Shown here in pieces: positions 12,005 through 55,310 of a DNA stretch of 64,000 nt. Where the stretch lies: positions 27,060,364 through 27,124,363 of the forward strand of contig CM073322.1 of NCBI GenBank assembly GCA_037043015.1. The letters are read 5' to 3'. The position numbers and the translations under genes were made by a program. Under the pieces are notes generated by a model, which saw only the letters and a program-made list of their open reading frames with translations, did no database searches and was not told where the DNA came from. Position 1 is the first letter of the stretch, and each line of letters starts with the position of its first letter. The stretch comes from Bryum argenteum (taxonomy: Eukaryota > Streptophyta > Bryopsida > Bryales > Bryaceae).

Positions 12005-12265
12005 TTCGGGGTATTGGGTTTTAGGGTAGGAGCAGGGGTCTTAGTTGCAGGGGCAAGAGTATTGGGTTTTCAAGGGCAGGGGTCTTGGGTCTCAGGGGCA
12101 GGGGTCTTGGGTCTCAGGGGTAGGAATCTTGGGTCTCAATGGCAGAGGTCTTGGGTCTCAATGGCAGGGGTCTTGAGTCTCAGGGGCAGGGGTGGGTCTT
12201 GGGTCTGAGGGGCAGGAGTCTTCAGTCGCAGGGGCAACGGTGTTGGGTCTTAGAGGGTAGATAGG
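12005..12265. repeat. G-rich minisatellite (about 22-24-bp units)
   Basis: Imperfect tandem copies of a unit containing gggtctcaggggcagg run for about 250 bp. The plus strand is strongly purine/G-rich with repeated GGGG runs, so G-quadruplex formation is possible. The open frame across it is a by-product of the repeat. Confidence 0.85.
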
Positions 12266-25179: not shown

Positions 25180-28100
25180 TCAGCTAGTTTCTACAACGTG
25201 CACTGCAAAAGGGGGTCCAGTGTAGCTCAGCGTTTCGTGTGTAGGCTGAGAATCAATAACAGCTGATCCCAGTAATGTGTACTGGCCGGGAACTAAGAAA
25301 CAGAGCGCAAATCGGTGCACAACCTCCCCAAGTGCTCCAACCTCCACGTGCACTCCTTCCAGTGTTCCTGTCAACGCAAAAGACATCAGCATTTGAGTTG
25401 CTCATCACCGAAAGCTTGTCACACGCGATTTGAGTGACGAAAATGTCACAATAAGATGCTGAAAGCGAGCAAGAGACTCACCGGCCCACAGTACTGTTCC
25501 TTTGCTACCGGCAGCACCCAAGCAACTAGTACCGGTGACGTCCCGACAGGTGACACTAAGTGTCATCTTGACAGCCTCGTTGGTGTTGTTCCGAACCAAC
25601 ATCTCGATAGGTGCCAGTTCCCGAACACCGATCCCGCCCTTGCTGTCAGGTGATAAGCCTCCATCGTCTGCCTCCACTTTCTGCAGGCCGACTCTAGGGG
25701 AACCAGGGAGATTGTCAACGTCGCCACTGTCTCTGGCGCTTCTCAACGTTGGAGGAGACATGGAGGTTTTCGCAAGTCGGAAACCGAACGTTAAAGGATC
25801 CGTTAACAGAATCTTTAGTACAGATGCCTGTAAAGCTTCTCGCAGGGCGTCCTTTATCGGCAACTCCCCTGCACTGTTACGACCTGAAGTCCACCTCACA
25901 CATATCTTTGAACTCAGCTCTTCGATGATTGCGTTCAGCTCGGCTTTGGCTTGCCGTCCTGTTCCGTCCTTAGACTTCGCATCGTGCTTTAGTATGGCCT
26001 CTTTTCGTATGGAGGCTCGTGCAAGGCTCGCTTTCTCCAAGCCAGCGAGCTTGAAACGCTCCAGTGGAATCAGAACACGAGCAGCGTAATCTCTGTCTAT
26101 TCTTGTGGGAGGGTAAAGACACTCTGGATCCTCCACTAGTCTTCCTTCCTCGTCTGCCTCCTTCCTGGTGACGACGATCTCAAACAGGACATCCGTCGCG
26201 TTCCAAAGCTCCAGCTCGAGAAGTCGCATGCCCCAGCTACCCCTGTAAGGATCCATTTTGACTAGACTTTCTTCTGCGACTGGGTCGGAGAGGGAGCTGT
26301 TGATGTTGGCGGCCACTTCCATGGAGAGTAGCTTGGCTTGCACCAGACACAGGCCCTTCAGGACGTGCAGTTGCAATGGGAGTGCCACTCGCCGGCCAGG
26401 CGGTGCCTCAGCCCCTTCCTCAAGCGACGGCCCTGCGTAGTGGATGACTAACATAGGAGTTGCGGCGTCTTTCTGCGCTCTGACCAGGTTTCGCAGATCG
26501 ACATCGGCAGTTGGCGAGCCCGCTTTCAGAGTCACCGGCACCACCACTGTGGCGCCCGGGGGCAGCGGCAGCGCGTCTTCCAACACGCTGTGTCCGATGG
26601 ACATCACGTGCTGCTGTTGCTTGCCTGTCAATGTCATGTGAGCCTCTACTACTGGGACCACGCCTGCGTTCGACAAACTGATTTGCATCTCACGAATCTC
26701 GCCCTCGTACAGAACAGCGGCTCCCTCGCCACCCACAGCGCGTGCCACGAGAAGTGGCAACGGCGGGACGACTTCCACGCGCTCGTACTGAGCCGGCGAA
26801 CGCACCTTGTGACCACTTCGAAACGGATCCACGAGCGCCGTGCCTTTCACTGCGCCGTCACTGACTTCTTCGAATAAGTGCTCCGTTACAACTCCGTAAC
26901 ACTTCACGATACAGCCTCGCACTGTGAGCGTCCCAACTTTGAGAGGCAACCCCGAGAGCGACACGACCTGACCAGAGCTAGCGGGCAGCGTGACTGAAAC
27001 AGGAAAAGCTTCGAACTGATCATGTTCCACTGACAGGGAGATGCTTTCGACCGTGACCTCGAATACGCAAGGATTGGCGAGCTCCACTAAGACTTCCACG
27101 GGCTCCCCAACGACCCAGGTGACGGGAATTCGGGTGTTCACATCGCCCTTCGCAGTGAAAGGAGTGTAGATGAAGGGGCCCGTCGAAGTGCGACCCTGCC
27201 ACCATTCGTTTATAGTGGCGCTTCGCTTGACAATCTCCCGATCTGCTGGCATTGCAGTGTAGGAATGCAATCTTACGAACGGAATGGCGGGCTCAGACGA
27301 CCTCGTTCCAGGGGCGAGACGCTCAGCAGACATGGAAAGCGCGTTTGCCAGGGTTAATTGCGAACCAGGTGGAATGAGAGGATAGTGATTCCTCAGCAAC
27401 CGAGCGGCCGCATTCCACGCCGTCAATGCATCACCTGCACGAACTGCAGCCGAGAGCATGTCATACAACACGTCCACTTGCAATGTGCTCCACTCACCGA
27501 CTGGTTTCTCCCTACCCTCCGCTTTGCCTAAACACTTGTAGGACTCTGCAGTGAGCGACATCACCTGCAGGGCGCTGACGGCAGCCCAATGACTATGCTG
27601 CTGTTGATACAACAGCGCCACTTGCCGTCCGTAAAACGCAGCTTTGCGATCATACCCGATCGCAGCAAAAATGCGAGATGCTTCGACATTGACCACCAAG
27701 CGATCACTAGCATCCATCAAGCTCTTGGACCATTCTACAGCTCCCATTACATAATCCACTACTTCTTTCGCATTCTCCTTCCTACAAAGAAACCTCGCTA
27801 GCTTCAGCGTCGCCTCCAATTCAAACGACAATGCCGTTGCCCTGCGATAGAGCTGGATCACTTCTAAATAACGATATTGCACCTCCTGTTCTAACAGGTA
27901 ATCCTTATGCCCAGCGTTCATAACAGTAGCACACGCATAACCCTCGATAGCGCCGGCTTGCCACAAACTATCGCCCGTAAGCCGAGCTAACTCAATCGCA
28001 GTGTAGTAGTGCAGATTGGCATCCGATGGTGATCCAGCCAGCAAGCAATAGTCTCCGATCGTTTTCTGTACCCGACCTAACTTCCGCTTCTTACTAACCT

Positions 28101-28713
28101 CGTCCGAGATAAGCGACACCTGCGAATCCAAGGGGGTCGTAAGCCCCACGGGTTTGAGATGCAATACGGAGCTCTCGAATGCCATGAGGAGCGACGCCGC
28201 GAAGTCCTGCATTAGCGTCTCCATGTGATTTTGCAAACCCTGCCGATCTGTGGATGGGAACATCACCAAAAACTCCTTTTTCTTCTCATCGTCCAATTCG
28301 ATTTGCGCGTCGGTCGGATGAAATGCAAAGCATCGCGTTACATGTGCGGAGGGGTACCCCTTGCAGATCGTGAGAAATTGATCATAAGCTGTGCTAATTT
28401 CCGGCGTGAGAGGACAATGGCATAACCCTATTACACCGAGAATCTTCCGATGCGCCTGAAAATCCTCCCAAGGACCCCGCACTGCCCCGCCTACCATAAA
28501 CTTGAGCATTAAGCTTCCAGTCTCCCACGGCTGCTGCGAGAACGGGCTCTTCTGATGTTCGGTGTAGTACGGGCTGACGCTCGAGAGCGGAATTCGCGTG
28601 TGCTGCACCAGCATCGCCACATAGTCTCGGAAATGCGCAGCCGGCATCTCCCCGATTGCCACCACTGCCACTCGGATCATGCTGCCCCCCTCCACTCGCA
28701 CCTCCGGCTCCAT
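25180..28713 (-). CDS. TRS120: TRAPPII complex subunit TRS120, two exons
   Basis: This is the plant TRS120 (TRAPPC9-like) subunit of the TRAPPII tethering complex, which acts at the trans-Golgi network and cell plate as part of a Rab-GTPase exchange factor. Exon 1 runs 28713-25482 and exon 2 25367-25180, with a 114-bp intron (donor gtgagt, acceptor tgacag) and in-phase junction, giving 1139 residues, near the size of the plant orthologues I know. The N-terminus MEPEVRV is followed by YYTEHQKSPFSQQPWETGSL and ILGVIGLCHCP, typical of plant TRS120. The middle is helical-repeat-like, and the C-terminal half is rich in beta-sandwich segments, ending VPGQYTLLGSAVI...GPPFAVHVVE. The frame is open to an upstream Met at 28779, but the leader there is Arg/Gly-rich, so I chose the Met matching orthologues. 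An almost single-exon structure is notable. Confidence 0.95.
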
Positions 28714-28779
28714 CTTCGCTCGCTCCCCCTTGCGAACTCCCCTGCCCCTACCACGATCCAATCCTTGCTTTCCCCTCAC

Positions 28780-30479
28780 TCATACCTGAAGCTCCTGCAC
28801 GACCTTGCTAAGGGCTGGAAATGCAGCACCCGTGCTGCGATGCAAAAGCTCCCTCGCGAGCTGGCGCCTTCTGGTGCCTTCGCCATAGCCATCCCCGCCA
28901 CGAGCTCGACAGCAAGAGCTTCGCCCTGTTTCGCAATGGCTTTTTAGGGTTCCAATAAACAACTCAATGACCAACTTAGAGCATTGCCACATCAATCAAT
29001 GTATGACTAATTTGGAGTTCCTAAGTTATTCCCTTCAAACACTAAAGTTTTGTGTCAAGAAAAAAAATTAATGTTAATGATAGAAATATTTTAAGTAATT
29101 TTGTAAGTATAGGATTTACGAGTCTTAATCCACTAATTACTTGATAGATTCAGCAGGAGGATCTTAAAGTTAAGTTGACTTACTAATCATGTTTTGAAAT
29201 TTGTGAAATTATAATATTCAAAGGGGTGAATTTAGGCTCTTTGAAACCCTCAAATAATGATTCCGATAGTACATAACTTTAGGGACTAAGCAGTGAAGTA
29301 ATCCCTACTCTCTTGTGTAATATTGGGGGACACATTGCGTAGGATTAGGGGCAAATTGATGGTTTAATGAGGGAAAAAATTTCAAGGAACAAAAACAATT
29401 ACATGGGACTACTATTCAACTATGTCGGTATTTGATTTCACTAATATTCTATCATTTTAAAAATTCAATATCATATCCTACAACTATCTTTTCTCAAAGA
29501 ACACAAAAATTGACAAATTGGAAGTTAAAATAAATAAATAAAATAAAATAATTTACTTTAACGATTCTAGCATATTTCAATTACAAGTCAAAATATTGTT
29601 GTTTTATCATTGAGATAGAGACTAAACAATTCATGTAAAAATTAAAGTTTTACATTAACAAGCTTAGAAATCTATTGCATAGTTTAGATGAGAAACAAGG
29701 CAACTCCGCTAAATTTAACTACTTCTAAAGTTGCACATTCGAGGCTTCCTTCATGGCTTTTGTGAGTTTAGATATGAACTTGGTAAGAATTATAATATGG
29801 GATTCCTCACAATGCACAAATAAACCTATTGGCAGGACCTTAGGTTCCCATAAGAATTGTGAGATTTAGTAGATTTAGTAAATGTTGAGTTTATGAATAG
29901 GTGCAATATCATTTTAAAGTTGATGTTGGGTTTAATGAAAACCCATGGCTCTACCATAAGATTCAAATACTCAAATTTTGCATGATATGCTAATTTTCAA
30001 TCAACCTAGTAACCAATCCGTAAATTTGAATTTCCTATACTTGTATTAGTTTCTATTTCTTAAAATTGTCTAGGTTTAGTTACATATGGCATACACACTA
30101 AGTCAAAATTAATAAATACTTAGAGGTTGAACATGTTGCAAAGTCATTATTGCCCTAATGACCAATACCATCTTGAGATATGTAAAATGATAACTTGTTT
30201 TAGTTATGTTACTCATATATTCATTATTTCGAACATGGATACATTTTGCAATATTTTTGTTTATAAAATGATCTTAGAACCAAAGTATCTAGAGAGTAGA
30301 AATATGCAACTATTTCAACCTAATCAATCTCTTAAAACTAATTAGCTACAATAAAATATGAAATCAAATGTATACACCTTAAATATTAGTTCTATTATAT
30401 TGTGCTTGTTTTTAAGACACAAATAAAAATGAAGAGGAAGAAATAATACCATCTTATATATTCAAATGGGAGAAAAAAA
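28780..30479. other. Intergenic between divergent genes
   Basis: 28780-28960 is GC-rich and probably the 5' UTR/promoter of TRS120, including an AACCCTAA telo-box-like site on the minus strand near 28945. 28980-30480 is about 70% AT with taaataaataaaataaaat tracts and no coding signal; it should contain the promoter of the AT-rich gene starting at 30480. Confidence 0.45.
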
Positions 30480-33400
30480 ATGCTACTATTAGAATCTAAA
30501 AACAGTTGCATAAACCACTTGCCAAAATTTTCTGATCAGATGTATGATTATAGCACTTACAAGCTCAAAAGATTTAATGAGTATAAGAACAAGTTCTTTC
30601 ACAAAGGGCCTACAAAACTTGGAAACATAACTAATCAAGTATTCGCAAATAGCTGCAAGCATCAAAATGAGGATTCAAATTCAAGATCTTCATTGCTTTA
30701 TGGAGATCTAGAAGCAAACAAATCAAATTGCGCTACACAAAGTGAAGATAGAATGAAGTTTGAAAATGACAACAAACATTGTGATGAATATCATGACAAG
30801 CAAATTTTTGCAAATAGTTTTCTGTTAAGAAGAAAGGATACCACTGACAAAGTCAATAACATTGAAACAATTGGAAATATGTTGGATAACAAAGGTAGCT
30901 CAAAATACCATCAATTTGAATTGCAAAATTTAACAGAATTTGACCCAATACTTAGAGAAAACATTCATAAGCTTGTAAAGAAAGATCAACAACTCAAACC
31001 TAAAATTGAAAGCAAAACCCTAAACAAAATTTTGAAGGAAATAAGAAATGAACAAAAACAAGAAAATAATGGGTAGAATACAAAACTCAAAGATATTTGA
31101 ATATCAAAACCTATTCATGGTACATGACTTTCTCTTTGTATCAAACTTTATCAATATACCTTCATAGATGAGAATTTTCTTATTTGTAATTTTTATCCTG
31201 AAAATAAAATTCTCTATACACAAGTAGACCATGGTTAGTACTATAATCAATTATATATAATTTGTATAATATTTTGAATAAGATAAAAATAGGTTGAATT
31301 TGGACTTGATTACTAAGTGAATCTTACCATTGCAATTTTTTATGAGTTTTAGCAGCTGTGAAACATCAACAAGTGTCATAGTTGGAAAACAGGACGTTGA
31401 TGATGGACATTATCTAGAACAAAAAGGTAAGTGATTGTTCAATGACACCTGATTATTGAACGAATGATTTTTGAAAGCTCTATATTTTAGTTGTGAATCA
31501 AATTGCTTGTTAAAGTTGTTGTTTGTATTTTATTTGAATATAGAAAGATAATTCAAACTTATTAGTGATTAAATTCTAGAAACTCTAATAATATTCTTTA
31601 ATTTACAAACTAGGAGCTACAATGGCACAAAGGATATGTATGCAACAACCGAATTGTAAAAAACATTATATTCCTTCGGAAAATTGTGTTCTTTATGTGG
31701 ATTGTGATTGTTTAAAGAAGAACCAATCATGGGAGACAAAAGTTCTTAGTGCATATATAAAATCCCTATATGCAAAAGAAAGAAATAGGATTGTAAAAAT
31801 TGATAAAATAGATTGCAAATATCTAAAAGAAATCAATTCAAACCCTTCATATATACTAAACTTATTGATTATGTGTAAAGATTTTCAACAAATACAAAAA
31901 TTAAAAAGTAATATTTTAATGAGTTCTAAAATTCTCAATGAGGATACAACTAGAATATTAAAACATAGTGGTGAAGTTTACAATAATTTGGAAAATAAAT
32001 TAACAACTGAAACTTTGACATGTAATACATGTAACACCCCAAATTCAGCCATTCTTTCCAATCATCCATGTTTGATGTTCTATCTGTTATTAAAGTGTTA
32101 TGAACCACTACAAATTGAACTTATTAATCAAGTTTTAATCAAAACAACTAAAGTCATTCACCTAGAGATAAAAGTCAATGATAAACCAAAAAATGTTCAT
32201 GAATCCTTCAATAAGCATTGCAATAGTCCCGTGAGTATGGATACTAGATTTGATGGGCTACACAAAGATAGAAGGTGTCCAAAGTCAATAGAGGAAAACA
32301 AATTGGATATGTACAAAAGACCATCAATTAATAATTCATTCATAAATCCAAATAGTAGCAAACATAAATATAATTCCAATGATATGTGTTTTGAAACTTC
32401 TTCCAAATGCAATATTTCTAGTGAAAGTAATTATATACATAGTTCTAGAGACAAAAATTCAGCTACATTTCCATCAAATGGGTCTTACCTTGACATTGAA
32501 TTATGTACAAAAAATCACAAATTTCAGAAAAAGAAATCAAATATCACAAAAGATCTGGAACCCTCAATTTTAAAGCTACATTCTAGAACTTTAGATCTTA
32601 ATGATAGTAGAAGATCTTTGAATGATATAGAATGTAGTAATGTTGCAACAAATGATTTGGAAGATTGCAAAATTTCAAATTTTTCATCTAATATCAAGGA
32701 AACCAATTTTGAATACCGTAACTCAAAACTTTCACGATTAGATAATCAAGAAAATGAATGTAAAGAAAGTTATCTATCTCGTCAACATACATTGGGCGCA
32801 AACAAGAACGATGCAAAAAAGAATCTAATTGGATTAAGTATTGTTTTTTCAAATTCTTATGAAAACTTGGATGAAAGTAAGGTCATAGACATTTATGATA
32901 GTAAGCTAGATTCAACTCCAAACAATTTTTCTATTGAATCACCTGACAACTTGAGAGAAATAGTCATTGAGAAATGTAGCAGTGATTGCTTCAACAATGT
33001 TGTTGAACAAACTCCAATGAATGAAAATAACTTAGCATCAAGAGTACACAATACTCGTAGTAGAAGTCAAATTATTGGAGATTATTCTAGTCTACAACTG
33101 ATAAATGGAAATTGTCAACGAGTTGTACCAAGTTCCAACTACTCAGAAAACAATCAATCAAATGGAAGGCCAATATATTATTTAAATGATCAATTGGACG
33201 TTGAAAATTCTAAAGAAAATGGTAACATAAAAGTGATAAAGAGGTCTTGTGATATTAGCAATTGTATGTGCGATGGAACTGCAAATGCTACTTCCAATGA
33301 ACTTGAAAACAAAATGCATGTTACAGATAAAGTGTCTTCATTTATCAATGAAGACAATAATATTGCTCAAATCAAAACCAAAAGAAAGTATTCATTGGAT

Positions 33401-34162
33401 TCTAACCATGACAAAGAACCAAAAGAATTACTTGGTCTAAATCAAAAAGAATCTAGTCAAGAAGCTTTGACAAATTATTCCAAATTACATCAAAATAAAC
33501 TAGTATGTTCATCACATATTTCAAATGAATTACAAGGTTCTAGTTGTGAGAAAATTTATTCTTCAGAATTTAATTCTTATGTTAATCCATGTTTATCCAA
33601 TGTTGAAGAGTTCAAGGAATTTCCTCGCATCAAGAATATAAAATTTTATGATAATTTTAGTAATCTATCACAATATAATGATCCAATAGAAATTATAACT
33701 CAACCACCACCTATAAAATACTCAAATGAAAACCTTGAGGACAATACAAACAATAAAAATTTTGCTTTCCAAAATAATATATCTTCACATGGAAAGTTTT
33801 TGGACAATTATTGTTCAAAAACTATCCATCAGGCAAATAAATGTCAAAACTTGAACGAATTTGAAAGTAGGAGTTTTGATTGGAAAACTTATGAATGTGA
33901 AAACTATAGAAGTCCTCAACTTTTGGAGATAGTTGTTGAGCATCCAAGCATTGAAGAGCCTTGCAATCAAAAATGTTCATTCCAAAATGATAGAGACTCA
34001 AATCATGGAACATCTGAACCCAAAATTTTAAAGAGAAAATGTAAGGCAAATAAACTTAAGAGGAAAAAAGTATGTAAGGAAATACAAACAGAACTTAGTA
34101 GTCCTCCTGGAGATGAAAGCATATTTTTCAAGCTTAATGGGCAATTGTGTTTTCGAGACTAA
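30480..34162 (+). CDS. AT-rich gene for a large Asn/Ser/Lys-rich protein of unknown family, three exons
   Basis: I do not recognise this protein. Exons 30480-31072, 31356-31426 and 31614-34162 join in phase: donor ggtaga with acceptor agcag rebuilds GGC, and donor gtaagt with acceptor aactag rebuilds GGA. The result is about 1070 residues. The last exon keeps an 849-codon frame open in DNA of roughly 70% AT, where chance stops would be dense. The start of exon 3 looks folded and Cys-bearing (LYVDCDCLKKN, LTCNTCNTPNSA, a hydrophobic LMFYLLLKCYEPLQIELI); the next 600 residues are low-complexity, rich in Asn, Ser, Asp and Lys and probably disordered. The C-terminus has a basic cluster (KRKCKANKLKRKKVCK) that could be a nuclear signal. 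Base composition is unlike the other genes here, so transfer, a fast-evolving lineage-specific gene, or a reproductive-cell gene are all possible. The 5' end could include further exons. Confidence 0.75.
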
Positions 34163-34388
34163 TTATTCAATATTAAACATTTTGGTAAGTTTAGAGTGAA
34201 GGTTTACATATTTGTATGTACCTTTTCTTGAAGTGAAGTCATATCAATACCATGATGGTGTAGCCATTTGAGGATTTACTTTTCTACTTGAAGTTGATCA
34301 ACAAATCACAAACTCTCTAAAACACTATTCACAAACCTTAAATAGTTTCAACCTCTGTAATTAAACACTACATAAAATGGGACACTAT

Positions 34389-34670
34389 GGTAGGCAGTCC
34401 TAAAAGCGCCACAGGGACCCAAAAGCGATCTGTCCTCATTTGTAGATTGTGAAGATACAAATGTACCTCATTTGTATATAACGCATTTGGGTCAAATCTT
34501 ACTTAGCACTTTGGAATTTTGTATAAAATTCACAAATGCGAATTACATGTTGCAAATTTTTGCAATCCTCCCGAAAACCTATTTCGAATGTGGTCATAAT
34601 TTTATTTTGAATTTACTAGTGCTAAAAATAGGTCAGATCTCTTAAGGTGGCGCTTTTAGGACACTCTACC
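34389..34670. mobile_element. MITE with 23-bp inverted ends (GGTAG...CCTAAAAGCGCCA)
   Basis: Left end ggtaggcagtcctaaaagcg (34389 on) matches the complement of the right end (ggtagagtgtcctaaaagcg, ending at 34670) with four mismatches over 23 bp. The 282-bp element has no ORF. Similar GGTAG termini occur in the elements at 42005 and 43330. Confidence 0.75.
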
Positions 34671-34819
34671 TTATATGAACTCAACAATGCATTGACTATA
34701 TAGACACGAATCCATTCCTCACCGTCATCATGGATGAGGGTTTCATAGTCACACATCATCAGCACTATACAAGAGTGCACAAACATAAAGGGCAAGTGCC
34801 TCTTGATCACAACTCTACA

Positions 34820-45779: not shown

Positions 45780-48700
45780 TTAGTGGTGGATGGTGATAAC
45801 ATTGCTGTGGGCCCTGGAAGACGTGATCTGAGGGCCGTTCTTAATGCGACGGCTGTTGGCGGCGGATTTCTGTCCCACACGACTGCTGCTAATTCTGGAG
45901 GAATCCGAGAACTCGTCGTCACTCGTGGTGCCCAAGTGGTTGGGTCGCTGCCGGCGCTTCAGTCGCAGGCACGCCTTGCTGGGGAAACAGGAGATTTCCA
46001 GCAACGGCTTCTTTGGCACCGGCACGCACTTGATCAACACTGCCAGAGGCAACGCTACCGCCCCAATTCCCACGCACAGTCCCCACCACTTGATCGCAAG
46101 ATCCGTTGTCTCCGCGAACTTGTTCAGGAACGTCACGATGATCACTTGGAAGAACACCGTGATGCCGATGATGGACAAGAAGAGGTAGTTCTTGTGGATT
46201 CCTTGGAACACGTTGAAAGACTCCGGGCGCCGCGCGTTGATCTCGTTGAAGACCTGGCAGAACACGAACGCGTTGAAGATGATGGTGTTCCGCTCCAGCA
46301 CTTGCTCCTCGTGCGTACCCTTCAGCCCCAGTAGCTTGATCCCGCGGTATGTCAGGAAGAGCAGCACCACAATTTGGTAGATCGCCTGCCCGAAGATGTT
46401 GCGCCACATGATGTTGGTGATGAGCGGCGCCGTGTTTCCGATCGGCTTCCTGTCCATGAGCTCGTCCGTCGGTGCTTCTGTGGCCAGAGCCAATGCGCCC
46501 ATGGTGTCCATGATCAGGTTCACCCACAGGAGCTGCACGGCCGTCAGCGGGACCTCGCCCGAACTCACGGCCGCCACGAAATTGATGGAGAGCGCCACCA
46601 CGTTCACGGTCAGCTGGAATTGGATGAACTTCTGGATGTTGGCGTACACGGATCGGCCCCACCGCACTACTTTCACGACCGACGTGAAGTTGTCGTCCAG
46701 GATGATGATGTCGGAGTTTTCCTTCGCCACCTCTGTGCCGGCGATCCCCATGGACAGGCCGATGTTTGCTTCCTTGAGCGCTGGTGCGTCGTTCGTCCCG
46801 TCGCCTGTTACAGCCACCACATCGCCGCGACGCTCCTTAAGGGCTTTCACCAGCTTCAACTTGTCCAAAGGTGACGATCTGGCCATGACCACCAGATTGT
46901 CCAGATCGCTGCTGTTCAGTCTGGCGTCGTCCCACATGCGGAAATCCTTGCCTTCGACCACCAGCTGGCCGGGTTGTGTCAGGATCCCGCATTCCGCCGC
47001 GATGGCCTTGGCTGTGAAGATGTTGTCGCCCGTCACCATTCGCACCTTCACGCCTGCTCGTTGGCACTGCGCCACCGCCTCGCGCACTCCAGGTCTGCAA
47101 GGGTCCTTGATGCCCACGACGGCCATGAGTACGAGGCCGTCGTCGGGGGCCTTCCAGTCCGAGCGTGCAGCTTCGCTTTCGGGGATTTCGGTTTCGTCGA
47201 AGGGTCTGTACGCAAATGCAATGCAGCGCAGTGCTTGTGCCGCCATGCCCTCGATGACGCCATTGAATTCGTGTCGCTTCTCGTCAGTCATGGGCCGGCA
47301 TACTCCAGAGGCGTCCATCCAGGTATCGCAGAGGTCGAGGATGATTTCAGCTGCACCCTTCCAATGCAACTCCACCATGCCATTCCTGCTTTTGTACACA
47401 ACCCCCGCGCGCTTCTTCTCCGAGTTGAATGTCTCCACATGCAGCACCTCGTTCTCGTGTCGGATCGCATGGAAGTTCATCCCCAGCTTCAGTCCCCATG
47501 TAAGGATTGCGGCTTCGGTCGGGCTGCCTGTCACAGCTGGCTCCTCGCCTTCCTTGGGTGGAGAGACGTTCCCATTGCTGTTCAGGCACACGGAATTCAC
47601 CAGCGATGTTTGCGAGTCCTTGGGAAGACGGTCGACGTCAGCCAATGAGTCATCCACATCCTTCGTCTGCGCCGCCAAACACACTCTCGTGACGGTCATC
47701 TTGTTCGTGGTCAGAGTCCCCGTCTTGTCGCTGCAAATCGTGGTGGCCGATCCCATAGTTTCGCACGCGGCCAGCTGACGGACCAACGACTTGTCAGCCA
47801 TCATCTTCCGCATCGAGTACGCCAATGTGAGCGTCACTGCCAATGGCAAACCCTCCGGCACAGCAACCACCACAATGGTGACGGCGATGGAGAAAATGTT
47901 CACCATGTCCTTGATTACTTGCATTGGCCTCCGGTTCCGCGCCGTCGCATTCTTGAACGTGATTGCGAAGTATCGAATGATCAAGATGACGAGCACCACG
48001 GACGCCACTGCAAGACCCACCTTGCCTATCAAAGTGGCCGCGCCGTTCAGCCTCACCTGAAGCGGCGTCTGCTCACCATTGTCCTGGCTGATGGACGCCA
48101 TGACCTGCCCCCATTCCGTGTTCAGCCCCACGCCCGTCACTAGCATCGTCCCTTGCCCGTCCTGCACTTTGCAACCGGACAGCAAAAACGGCCGCGTCTT
48201 GTCCTTCTTCACAGGAAAGCTCTCGCCCGTCATGGTGGACTCGTCAATGGACAGCGAGTGACCCTCCACCAACACTCCGTCGGCGGGGACTTGGCCCCCG
48301 ATGGACAGCGGCACAATGTCGCCTACCACGAGGTCGAAAATGGATACCATCTGTCTCTTCCCGGCCCGCAAAACTTCCAGCTGAATATTCTCTTTCTCAT
48401 CATTGAGGTTGCGGAAGTTGAGCCCCTGCTTGTAGTCGCTTGTAGCGGTGACGACAATGACGAGCAGCACCGCGACTCCAATGCTGGTGCCCTCGTACCA
48501 CCCCTTTTTGATGCCCTCCGTCCAGATCCCCGTCCCGAGCGAGACTATGGCGCACACCATGAGGATGTTGAGGGTGGTGTCCTTGCATGCATCCCACACG
48601 AATGACCAGAAGCGTTTACTAACCTTCTTCGGGTACGTGTTGGAGCCAAAAGCGTCACGTCTCTTCCGCATTTGCTCCTCCGTTTCGTCAAGTCCATACT

Positions 48701-49019
48701 CTTTATTTGTGTTGACTTTAAAACACAGTTGGTCGATTCCACCCAATGCATCGAGGTCTTCTGGTTGCCGGTCTTGCAGCAATCGCGTCAAGGCGGCAGG
48801 GGCGATCCCAAAGCCGTGGGGAATGGGGTCGACTGGCTGAATACGAGCCCCTTTTTTGAATTGCTTGCAAGCGCAAATGGCTAACGTGGCAACTCTCAAC
48901 CTGTTATTCAGATACACTCTCCTTGATTTGGAGAGTGACAGGTTGACACCACAATGACTAGGCTGATCGGCACTCGTACCTGCGTCCATGACTTTGGCGA
49001 AATTTATGAACGGGTACAA
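45780..49019 (-). CDS. P-type Ca2+-ATPase, plant autoinhibited (ACA, P2B) type, intronless
   Basis: This is a calcium pump that exports Ca2+ from the cytosol using ATP, probably at the plasma membrane. The 1079-residue frame has no introns. In order: N-terminal tail (1-100), actuator TGES (264-267), helix-4 PEGLPLAVTLTLAYSMRKMM (from about 388), phosphorylation site CSDKTGTLT with Asp 431, nucleotide-binding KGAAE (554-558), hinge VTGDGTND (737-744), helix-6 VNLIMDTMGALALATEAPTD (833-852), and a long basic, Ser-rich C-terminal tail. Sequence around SGCKVQDGQGTMLVTGVG places it in the ACA8-13-like clade. The N-terminal tail is shorter and less canonical than in typical ACAs and lacks the usual Trp of the calmodulin site; RRVYLNNRLRVATLAICACK may replace it (inference). 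A Met at residue 11 (48989) is an alternative start. Confidence 0.96.
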   Translation of the reverse strand: MYPFINFAKVMDAGTSADQPSHCGVNLSLSKSRRVYLNNRLRVATLAICACKQFKKGARIQPVDPIPHGFGIAPAALTRLLQDRQPEDLDALGGIDQLCFKVNTNKEYGLDETEEQMRKRRDAFGSNTYPKKVSKRFWSFVWDACKDTTLNILMVCAIVSLGTGIWTEGIKKGWYEGTSIGVAVLLVIVVTATSDYKQGLNFRNLNDEKENIQLEVLRAGKRQMVSIFDLVVGDIVPLSIGGQVPADGVLVEGHSLSIDESTMTGESFPVKKDKTRPFLLSGCKVQDGQGTMLVTGVGLNTEWGQVMASISQDNGEQTPLQVRLNGAATLIGKVGLAVASVVLVILIIRYFAITFKNATARNRRPMQVIKDMVNIFSIAVTIVVVAVPEGLPLAVTLTLAYSMRKMMADKSLVRQLAACETMGSATTICSDKTGTLTTNKMTVTRVCLAAQTKDVDDSLADVDRLPKDSQTSLVNSVCLNSNGNVSPPKEGEEPAVTGSPTEAAILTWGLKLGMNFHAIRHENEVLHVETFNSEKKRAGVVYKSRNGMVELHWKGAAEIILDLCDTWMDASGVCRPMTDEKRHEFNGVIEGMAAQALRCIAFAYRPFDETEIPESEAARSDWKAPDDGLVLMAVVGIKDPCRPGVREAVAQCQRAGVKVRMVTGDNIFTAKAIAAECGILTQPGQLVVEGKDFRMWDDARLNSSDLDNLVVMARSSPLDKLKLVKALKERRGDVVAVTGDGTNDAPALKEANIGLSMGIAGTEVAKENSDIIILDDNFTSVVKVVRWGRSVYANIQKFIQFQLTVNVVALSINFVAAVSSGEVPLTAVQLLWVNLIMDTMGALALATEAPTDELMDRKPIGNTAPLITNIMWRNIFGQAIYQIVVLLFLTYRGIKLLGLKGTHEEQVLERNTIIFNAFVFCQVFNEINARRPESFNVFQGIHKNYLFLSIIGITVFFQVIIVTFLNKFAETTDLAIKWWGLCVGIGAVALPLAVLIKCVPVPKKPLLEISCFPSKACLRLKRRQRPNHLGTTSDDEFSDSSRISSSRVGQKSAANSRRIKNGPQITSSRAHSNVITIHH

Positions 49020-49102
49020 GTACTGAACACACGGGAGATTTTCTCAAATCGGGAATCTCTCTGTAATTCGCCTCAAAGAGCCGAACGCTGTTGTGGTTGG
49101 TT

Positions 49103-53337: not shown

Positions 53338-53469
53338 ATGCACAAAAATAATTCTATGCACAAAAAGAATTCTATGCACAAAAAGAATTCTATGCACAAA
53401 AAAAATTCTATGCACAAAAAGAATTCTATGCACAAAAAAAATTCTATGCACAAAAAGAATTCTATGCAA
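53338..53469. repeat. 18-bp tandem repeat, about seven copies
   Basis: The unit atgcacaaaaagaattct repeats head to tail about seven times, some copies with A for G. Because 18 is a multiple of three, several frames on both strands remain open (repeats of MHKKNS, CTKRIL, FVHRIL and FLCIEF); none is likely to be a gene. Confidence 0.95.
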
Positions 53470-53750: not shown

Positions 53751-53843
53751 GATTGGTATTCGTCGCAACTGTTGTACCGACAGATCGTCTGTTTAGAGAA
53801 ATAGCTTCGCAGTTCGTTAATTGTTTCCGCCAAATGTATCGAG

Positions 53844-55310
53844 ATGGCGGCACTCGATCGCCGCGTATTCGAGAATCTGCACCCCGGTCGGAGAATTGTC
53901 TTCAATTTGCCGGTTTCCGATCAGGAATTGGTGCGCTTCGCAGTTCTGGACTCAGCTATGGAGATTGAGGACGAGGTGACCTGTGCCGCCATGCTGGTGC
54001 CTACAGGGGTAGAAGACGACTGGATCTACAGCTCCGAGGGGGGGCAATGGCAACTTCTAACAACTGCTAGCGTCTCCCGACTGATTGTAGTGGATAGAAT
54101 CGGTAAAACTAGGGTTCAAGAAAAGTCGGCATGTCTGCAATGCGATGACCAGGCCCTGGCGACCAGGTTAGGTCCCATCGTTATCGCACTTGCGCCACGA
54201 AGCTGCTTCAAATATGGCGTACCTATTGTTCCGTTCGTAGATTATACTCACAACATTATTCATCGCGTAGTGGTCGAGGAATCGTACTCGTCTTTGACAG
54301 GTTCTATGGTGGTAGAGGATGTCACCTTGGACACGGCGAGCTTCGACTCCAATCACGCAGACGTTTCAGTAGAAACTGGATGTGTTCACAGACAAGTTCG
54401 GAAAGCGGACAAAGTGGTTTACCGACGTTGGTTGCGGTTTAAGCGTATGCCGAATTTAGTGCAGACAGAAGTGTCGCTCGTCAACTCGAGTACGTGTGAC
54501 AGGGACGCGGTCTTGAGCGATTCCCAAATTGATCATAGTTTATTAGTTCACAAGTATCTTCCACCAATTGTGGCGGGGTTAGTTCTTGCTGCATCAAGCA
54601 TTGAGCCTTTCATGGAGCGCGGGGAGAAAGTCAATGTTTTGGCTCTCGGAGTTGGTGGAGGCGCTCTTCCAATTTTTCTTCAGAAGCATTTAGGGTTTCA
54701 TGTTCAGGTATAAACCATTGATTTTCTTTGCTGGAACCACGAGTTTATGAAAATTGCGGACTTAGAGGTTGAATGTGTGCAGGCTGTGGATATAGACAGA
54801 GTTGTACTCGATCTCGCCCATCGACATTTCGGTCTGCAGAATGGCGTTGACATGGAGGTCGAAGTGGGAGATGCACTTCAGATCATTAGCAAGCTAGCCG
54901 TGAAGGTCACTGACGAATTGGCAGATAAGAAAAGTAACGATCATCGAGTACATGTAATAGTTCTTGACGTGGATGAAGGAGATGCCCGGTGTGGATTGAG
55001 CTCTCCTCCATCAAGTTTCCTGGAACGTAGCTTCCTCTCAGATGCGAGGACTGTGCTTCACGACGGCGGTATACTTGCTATCAACGTGGTTCCTAATGGA
55101 GCAAAATCGTACTCTGGGGTAATCAGATCGCTACTGTCTGTCTTTGATCATGTGTACGAGACTGTTGTAGAAGATGACGTGAATCGAGTAGTTTTTGCAT
55201 TGCCATCCAAGCGTACAAGCGTGAGTTTAGAAGGCCCTTTGGCTCGTCTTGTGACGAAGTTCTTAGATGTAAGGTTAATCACTGCGATACAAAAAGCTCA
55301 TACCGAATGA
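53844..55310 (+). CDS. METTL13/spermidine-synthase-like methyltransferase, two exons
   Basis: Exons 53844-54707 and 54783-55310 join in phase 0 over a 75-bp intron (donor gtataa, acceptor gtgcag), giving 463 residues. The C-terminal half has a SAM-binding Rossmann fold: motif I VLALGVGGGALPIFL (about 268-282), an acidic strand end AVDIDRVVLDLA (289-300), and a strand VIVLDVDEGD (about 356-365). This is the arrangement in METTL13-type and spermidine-synthase-like proteins. The N-terminal 260 residues match the layout of the region preceding that domain in METTL13 relatives. METTL13 of animals methylates elongation factor eEF1A; whether this protein does is not shown. The other METTL13 methyltransferase domain is absent, so it is a single-domain form. 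Its stop lies 60 bp from the stop of the convergent gene. Confidence 0.85.

Follow-up and report, generated by a model that had tools for sequence, protein, structure and literature searches.

In a land plant, dynein heavy chains are a mark of swimming sperm. The dynein heavy-chain family PF12774 has matches at eight places on seven contigs of the Bryum argenteum genome, and this plant should therefore make motile sperm. Methylated cytosine mutates to thymine, and cytosine methylation repeated in the germ line would over time leave genes that are AT-rich, CpG-poor and TpG-rich. For Marchantia, which is a different species from ours, the published CG gene-body methylation is 54% in antherozoids against 14% in archegonia; a Marchantia table also holds regulatory and RNA-processing terms. 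None of the literature matches listed concerned AT-rich or CpG-poor moss genes.

The locus described here lies in a stretch of 64,000 nucleotides, C2:27060364-27124363 of the genome, referred to below as the window. The sequence at 30480-34162 of the window is almost certainly an intact protein-coding gene. In the reading favoured here, at a probability of about 0.4, it is a nuclear gene that is intact, present in one copy and evolving fast, and that most likely serves the male germ line of a plant whose sperm are flagellate. Fast-evolving sperm genes of plants are easily overlooked by similarity searches.

The reading frame and its product

The gene consists of three exons.

30480-31072, + strand: exon 1, with an ATG start, 197 codons plus 2 nt; its frame is open over 30447-31076 and the donor is G/GTAGAA
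31073-31352, + strand: intron 1, 280 nt, GTAGAA...TTTTAG, with an alternative acceptor 3 nt further on
31353-31426, + strand: exon 2, 74 nt, in phase on both sides, donor AAG/GTAAGT
31427-31613, + strand: intron 2, 187 nt, GTAAGT...AACTAG
31614-34162, + strand: exon 3, 2549 nt, an 856-codon open frame with TAA at its end

The joined coding sequence of 3216 nt encodes 1071 amino acids plus the TAA, and both introns are of the GT-AG type. The acceptor of intron 1 reads TTTTAGCAG; exon 2 can start at 31353 or 31356, and either start keeps the frame. An earlier note on this DNA had proposed three exons joined in phase into about 1070 codons. That model stands, except that its end of intron 1, at 31355, is off by 3 nt.

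The same note held a chance frame of this length to be very unlikely, and simulation bears this out. The 5.4-kb island around the gene was simulated 300 times with a first-order Markov model, which preserves its dinucleotide make-up. The longest frame in these runs had a median of 92 codons and a maximum of 174, as against observed frames of 856 and 209. The remaining five frames of exon 3 contain 44-128 stops each. Twenty stretches of contigs C1 and C2, together 200 kb, contain 71 frames that reach 150 codons. A single one of these has a GC content of 0.36 or less, and this AT-rich frame is a microsatellite.

GC at codon positions 1, 2 and 3 is 0.36, 0.30 and 0.22 (GC3 0.224), and in the introns it is 0.24. 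Silent sites are thus nearer than replacement sites to the composition of the DNA around them. We take the gene to be under coding constraint now, or to have been so until recently. One copy is found in the genome at E <=0.001 (258.8 Mb in 25 contigs). A 114.6-kb contig of the same genome bears rpoB and is therefore the plastid.

The product is rich in Asn (12.0%), Ser (10.9%) and Lys (10.4%), with 3.8% Cys. Its more hydrophobic stretch, at residues 301-400, corresponds to the Cys-bearing ordered part that had been described from the letters alone, and the C-terminus is basic as described, with a net charge of +6 over residues 1001-1050. The long Asn/Ser/Lys-rich arms that flank the ordered core look disordered.

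34022-34069, + strand: basic C-terminal stretch (KILKRKCKANKLKRKK), from the translation and the charge profile
31838-31936, + strand: first repeat unit (q2), which aligns with the candidate relative on contig C10 and with unit q3; strand-helix-strand by eye only
32060-32158, + strand: second repeat unit (q3), HPCLxxxLxxKC, which aligns with unit b2 of the C10 gene at a score matched by 0 of 300 shuffles

Every repeat unit looks like strand-helix-strand by eye, for example HPCLVYKLKIKCEDMDQVRRLEESLFDTSVIVF; the poor AlphaFold2 models are mostly helix and disagree. Computed without an alignment, these models had a pLDDT of 33.9 for the ordered part (212 aa) and 41.9 for the double unit (123 aa). 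Both are unusable.

Known families and a candidate relative

The earlier note recognized no family in the product, and Pfam agrees: exons 1 and 3 are without any family at E <=10, and eight shorter pieces of the protein gave nothing except a WW_1 fragment at E 0.41, which looks like chance. Matches in a PDB sequence search were at chance level (E 0.056-10). Scans that catch mainly close relatives found none in the IMG/VR viral collection, and in the GTDB species genomes 18 stretches fit a pattern and none of them encodes a relative. Exon 1 has three weak places in its own genome (E 3.8-6.9), taken as chance; the frames there are normal in GC and CpG. The gene is likely to be lineage-specific or fast-evolving.

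Two specific domains were considered and rejected. A helical domain of the LEDGF integrase-binding or TFIIS N-terminal (Med26) kind was a lead from a sequence pattern; hmmscan of the ordered part found nothing, and genome searches with PF11467 and PF08711 (E <=10) gave four and nine places, with the gene in neither set. For a degenerate HMA domain (PF00403), likewise a lead from a pattern, hhalign of A1 against four HMA sequences, two of which Pfam confirmed as HMA, gave a probability of 0.2%, and the C10 piece alone gave 0.2% against the same four. The four repeat units contain no CxxC metal site; three have a single Cys there and one has none.

The genome itself offers one candidate relative.

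C10:11038601-11040773: candidate related gene, two exons of 300 and about 238 aa

A search of the genome with the ordered part (31622-32257) finds C10:11038700-11038984 at E 0.16. The same search also brings up a 51-aa match at C2:18836097 (E 0.27, 42%, one internal stop), a locus without a comparable open frame that is taken as a chance match; E 0.16 for C10 therefore proves nothing alone. In the reverse search from the C10 gene, our gene (E 1.66) is the sole further hit up to E 10. Aligned directly, the ordered part and the C10 sequence share 23 of 114 residues, with an E of 4e-6 that applies to a single comparison of a pair picked from the whole genome. For this pre-picked pair the Smith-Waterman score is 87, against 34 +- 5.6 for shuffled sequences, 0 of 500 of which reach 87. 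When the two whole proteins are compared the signal is weaker: a score of 87 is reached by 3 of 500 plain shuffles and by 7 of 500 local ones.

Within each protein, one half of the match resembles the other. The score of q2 against q3 is reached by 2 of 300 shuffles, as is that of b1 against b2, and cross pairs are reached by 0 to 6 of 300. The two units stand in the same order in both proteins, about 75 and about 80 residues apart (counted on A1). A 69-aa half-unit used as a query found only itself in the genome, which counts against a family. Exon A of the C10 gene shows no similarity to exon 1 (399 of 500 shuffles score as high), and Pfam has no family for the C10 exons at E <=10. A 62-aa stretch from the C10 gene drew PF21917 at E 0.018, which is below the family cut-off and looks like chance. 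On these alignments, common ancestry of our gene and the C10 gene is probable, and the case for the C10 gene as a second family member is supported but weak.

Two further units were dropped. A third unit q1 before q2 has scores that 53 to 296 of 300 shuffles reach against the five other units. Unit a1 in C10 exon A is weak, at 14 to 218 of 300 shuffles against q2, q3, b1 and b2, and its region recurs as decayed repeats. Decayed tandem repeats that resemble part of C10 exon A lie at C10:10926551-10926715 (L063; 55% identity, E 1.3e-4), about 113 kb from the C10 gene and apparently inside an intron of what is presumably a plastid signal-peptidase gene.

Base composition of the island and of dynein genes

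The gene stands in an AT-rich island and has two recognizable neighbours.

25405-28779, - strand: neighbouring TRAPPC9/Trs120 gene
29000-34400, no strand: AT-rich, CpG-poor island holding the gene, with GC 0.26-0.30 over 29001-34000 and CpG observed/expected of about 0.22-0.31
45780-49043: neighbouring P-ATPase gene of the calcium-transporting type

Five 1-kb bins, those of 29001-34000, have a GC content of 26-30%, and the remaining 59 in the window have 31-58%. GC is 0.29 in the gene, in line with the roughly 70% AT reported earlier, and 0.28 in the DNA upstream. The observed/expected ratios of the gene are 0.25 for CpG, 1.45 for TpG and 1.28 for CpA; that for CpG is 0.98 in both TRAPPC9 and the Ca-ATPase. 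Among 100 windows of 2 kb sampled from C1 and C2, none combines GC <=0.33 with CpG <=0.40. Frames of 250 codons or more listed from the sampled stretches, among them some that look transposon-like by eye, show a CpG ratio of about 0.6-1.3, so the CpG deficit is not general. The C10 gene also lies in an AT-rich island, about 6 kb long, with 27-33% GC and CpG of 0.33-0.58 per kb.

Several other features of the region were observed. An inverted repeat with arms at 34386-34412 and 34647-34673 (27 nt, 85% complementary, 234 nt apart) begins about 220 nt past the stop codon; the segment 34386-34673 looks like a small MITE-type element. At C2:27040001-27050000 (L018), 10-20 kb upstream of the window, frames judged by eye point to at least one, probably two, more Ca-ATPase copies, and by eye the P-type pumps would form a local cluster near the window. 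Methyltransferase-like frames at 53805-55310, which we take to be METTL13/spermidine-synthase-like, go unmatched in Pfam at E 0.001 and may form a single gene interrupted by an intron near 54714. Minisatellites lie at 53338-53468 (18-bp unit, 7.3 copies, 95% matches) and 12028-12250 (22-bp unit, 10 copies, 75% matches).

The dynein genes were compared with the gene and with controls from the same genome. The dynein set holds one stretch per gene (n = 8) from one flagellar family; the stretches are not fully independent, as L064 and L065 encode a nearly identical sequence start, and L068 and L070 contain stop codons, so that some intron is included. The 16 controls are mostly multi-exon genes: 4 RNA polymerase, 9 MutS and 3 TFIIS-type. 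One (L078) is a single long exon, and L075, L077, L079 and L086 hold a stop, hence some intron. Left out of this set were second exons of genes already sampled (L084, L087, L088, L090 and L091) and also TRAPPC9, two Ca-ATPase genes, the METTL-like frame, a P450, L053, L054 and L055, which served in another comparison, with 11 partly overlapping genes.

The dynein stretches have GC of 0.37-0.48 (0.41 or less in seven of the eight), GC3 of 0.21-0.50 and CpG observed/expected of 0.33-1.42; four of the eight have CpG at 0.33-0.56, and two are at 0.94 and 1.42. GC in the controls is 0.45-0.53. One-sided Mann-Whitney tests on rounded values, with the frame of L056 chosen by eye, separate dyneins from the 16 controls in GC (p 1.4e-4) and GC3 (p 1.3e-3) and do not separate them in CpG (p 0.16). 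With the 11 non-flagellar genes as controls, a set that overlaps the first, p is 1.7e-4 for GC, 4e-4 for GC3 and 0.013 for CpG. AT-richness is thus common to the gene and the dynein genes, the gene (GC 0.29, GC3 0.22) being AT-richer than each of the eight dynein stretches. CpG depletion as a link with the dynein genes is suggestive only. The earlier note had set the composition apart from every other gene. This is true of the long frames in the window and fails genome-wide, where flagellar dynein exons and the C10 relative are AT-rich too, although less so.

One MutS control is presumably MSH4, which is meiosis-specific. It is not AT-rich (GC 0.47, GC3 0.50), so on this one gene meiosis-specific expression alone does not explain the AT bias. 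Another MutS-type gene, at C3:4666234-4666788 (L078), has its whole MutS_V match in one 541-codon frame with GC3 of 0.38; elsewhere in the genome MutS matches are in pieces or partial.

The likeness in composition to genes of the sperm-tail motor hints at a role in sperm-forming cells. The AT-rich, CpG-poor coding sequence of the gene departs in the same direction as the dynein genes and is what repeated germ-line cytosine methylation would leave. The gene would then most likely be transcribed, and methylated in its body, in the lineage that forms sperm. The Asn/Ser/Lys-rich arms may owe part of their make-up to AT pressure acting on a loosely constrained protein. A scaffold role can be guessed at, in which the ordered double-unit core would bind a partner and the arms would recruit others. 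Expression in the sperm lineage, methylation as the cause of the composition, fast evolution and the scaffold role are what we infer.

Other explanations and known systems

A tie to sperm would be needless if this were an ordinary lineage-specific gene in an AT-rich isochore, shaped by regional mutation bias and low GC-biased conversion, and such an origin is a serious possibility at somewhat worse than even odds. Introns, third codon positions and upstream DNA are alike in GC, which makes the bias regional and not one of coding sequence alone, and the C10 relative likewise sits in an AT-rich island. However, the AT bias is common to dynein genes on seven contigs and absent from the 16 controls, and the CpG deficit, with its excess of TpG and CpA, exceeds what base composition would bring about. 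The same methylation footprint could belong to a gene of another narrow stage, such as egg, zygote or sporophyte, because it requires germ-line methylation and not male expression per se. We consider this rather unlikely, given the ordinary composition of the probable MSH4 and, in Marchantia, the higher CG gene-body methylation in antherozoids than in archegonia.

The remaining two explanations deny the gene a native function or a native origin. A decayed or transposon-derived frame without function would fit the small inverted-repeat element downstream and the decayed tandem repeats on C10 that carry a fragment of the relative's exon, but it is very unlikely, given 1071 stop-free codons in 71% AT DNA, one copy found in the genome and no transposase or capsid match. 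The earlier note had also allowed for transfer. Arrival from a virus, a bacterium or another AT-rich donor would account for the unusual composition and the lack of a family match, and is nonetheless highly improbable: the scans of IMG/VR and the GTDB species genomes, which find mainly close relatives, gave none, two GT-AG introns interrupt the gene, its sole candidate relative is in the same nuclear genome, and the native dynein genes are AT-biased as well.

A wider claim can be framed. Our gene and its C10 relative would be the founders of a new family of plant proteins whose tandem strand-helix-strand module serves in making sperm. Islands that are AT-rich and CpG-poor would, in genomes of this kind, be fossil imprints of male-germline gene-body methylation, making sperm genes readable from composition alone. 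This is a long shot. Should composition mark sperm genes, the unknown genes in such islands could be listed genome-wide; should it be no mark, the gene is another long orphan with no immediate lesson.

Among known systems, the gene resembles the taxonomically restricted (orphan) genes of plants in being intact without a Pfam family match. At 1071 aa over three exons, it is long for such a gene. With the C10 gene it appears to share two repeat units, and both lie in AT-rich islands, although the C10 gene is half as long and has no counterpart to exon 1. The genome's flagellar dynein heavy chains are conserved motors without sequence relation to our gene and with a milder composition, but like it they have AT-rich coding sequence and low GC3.
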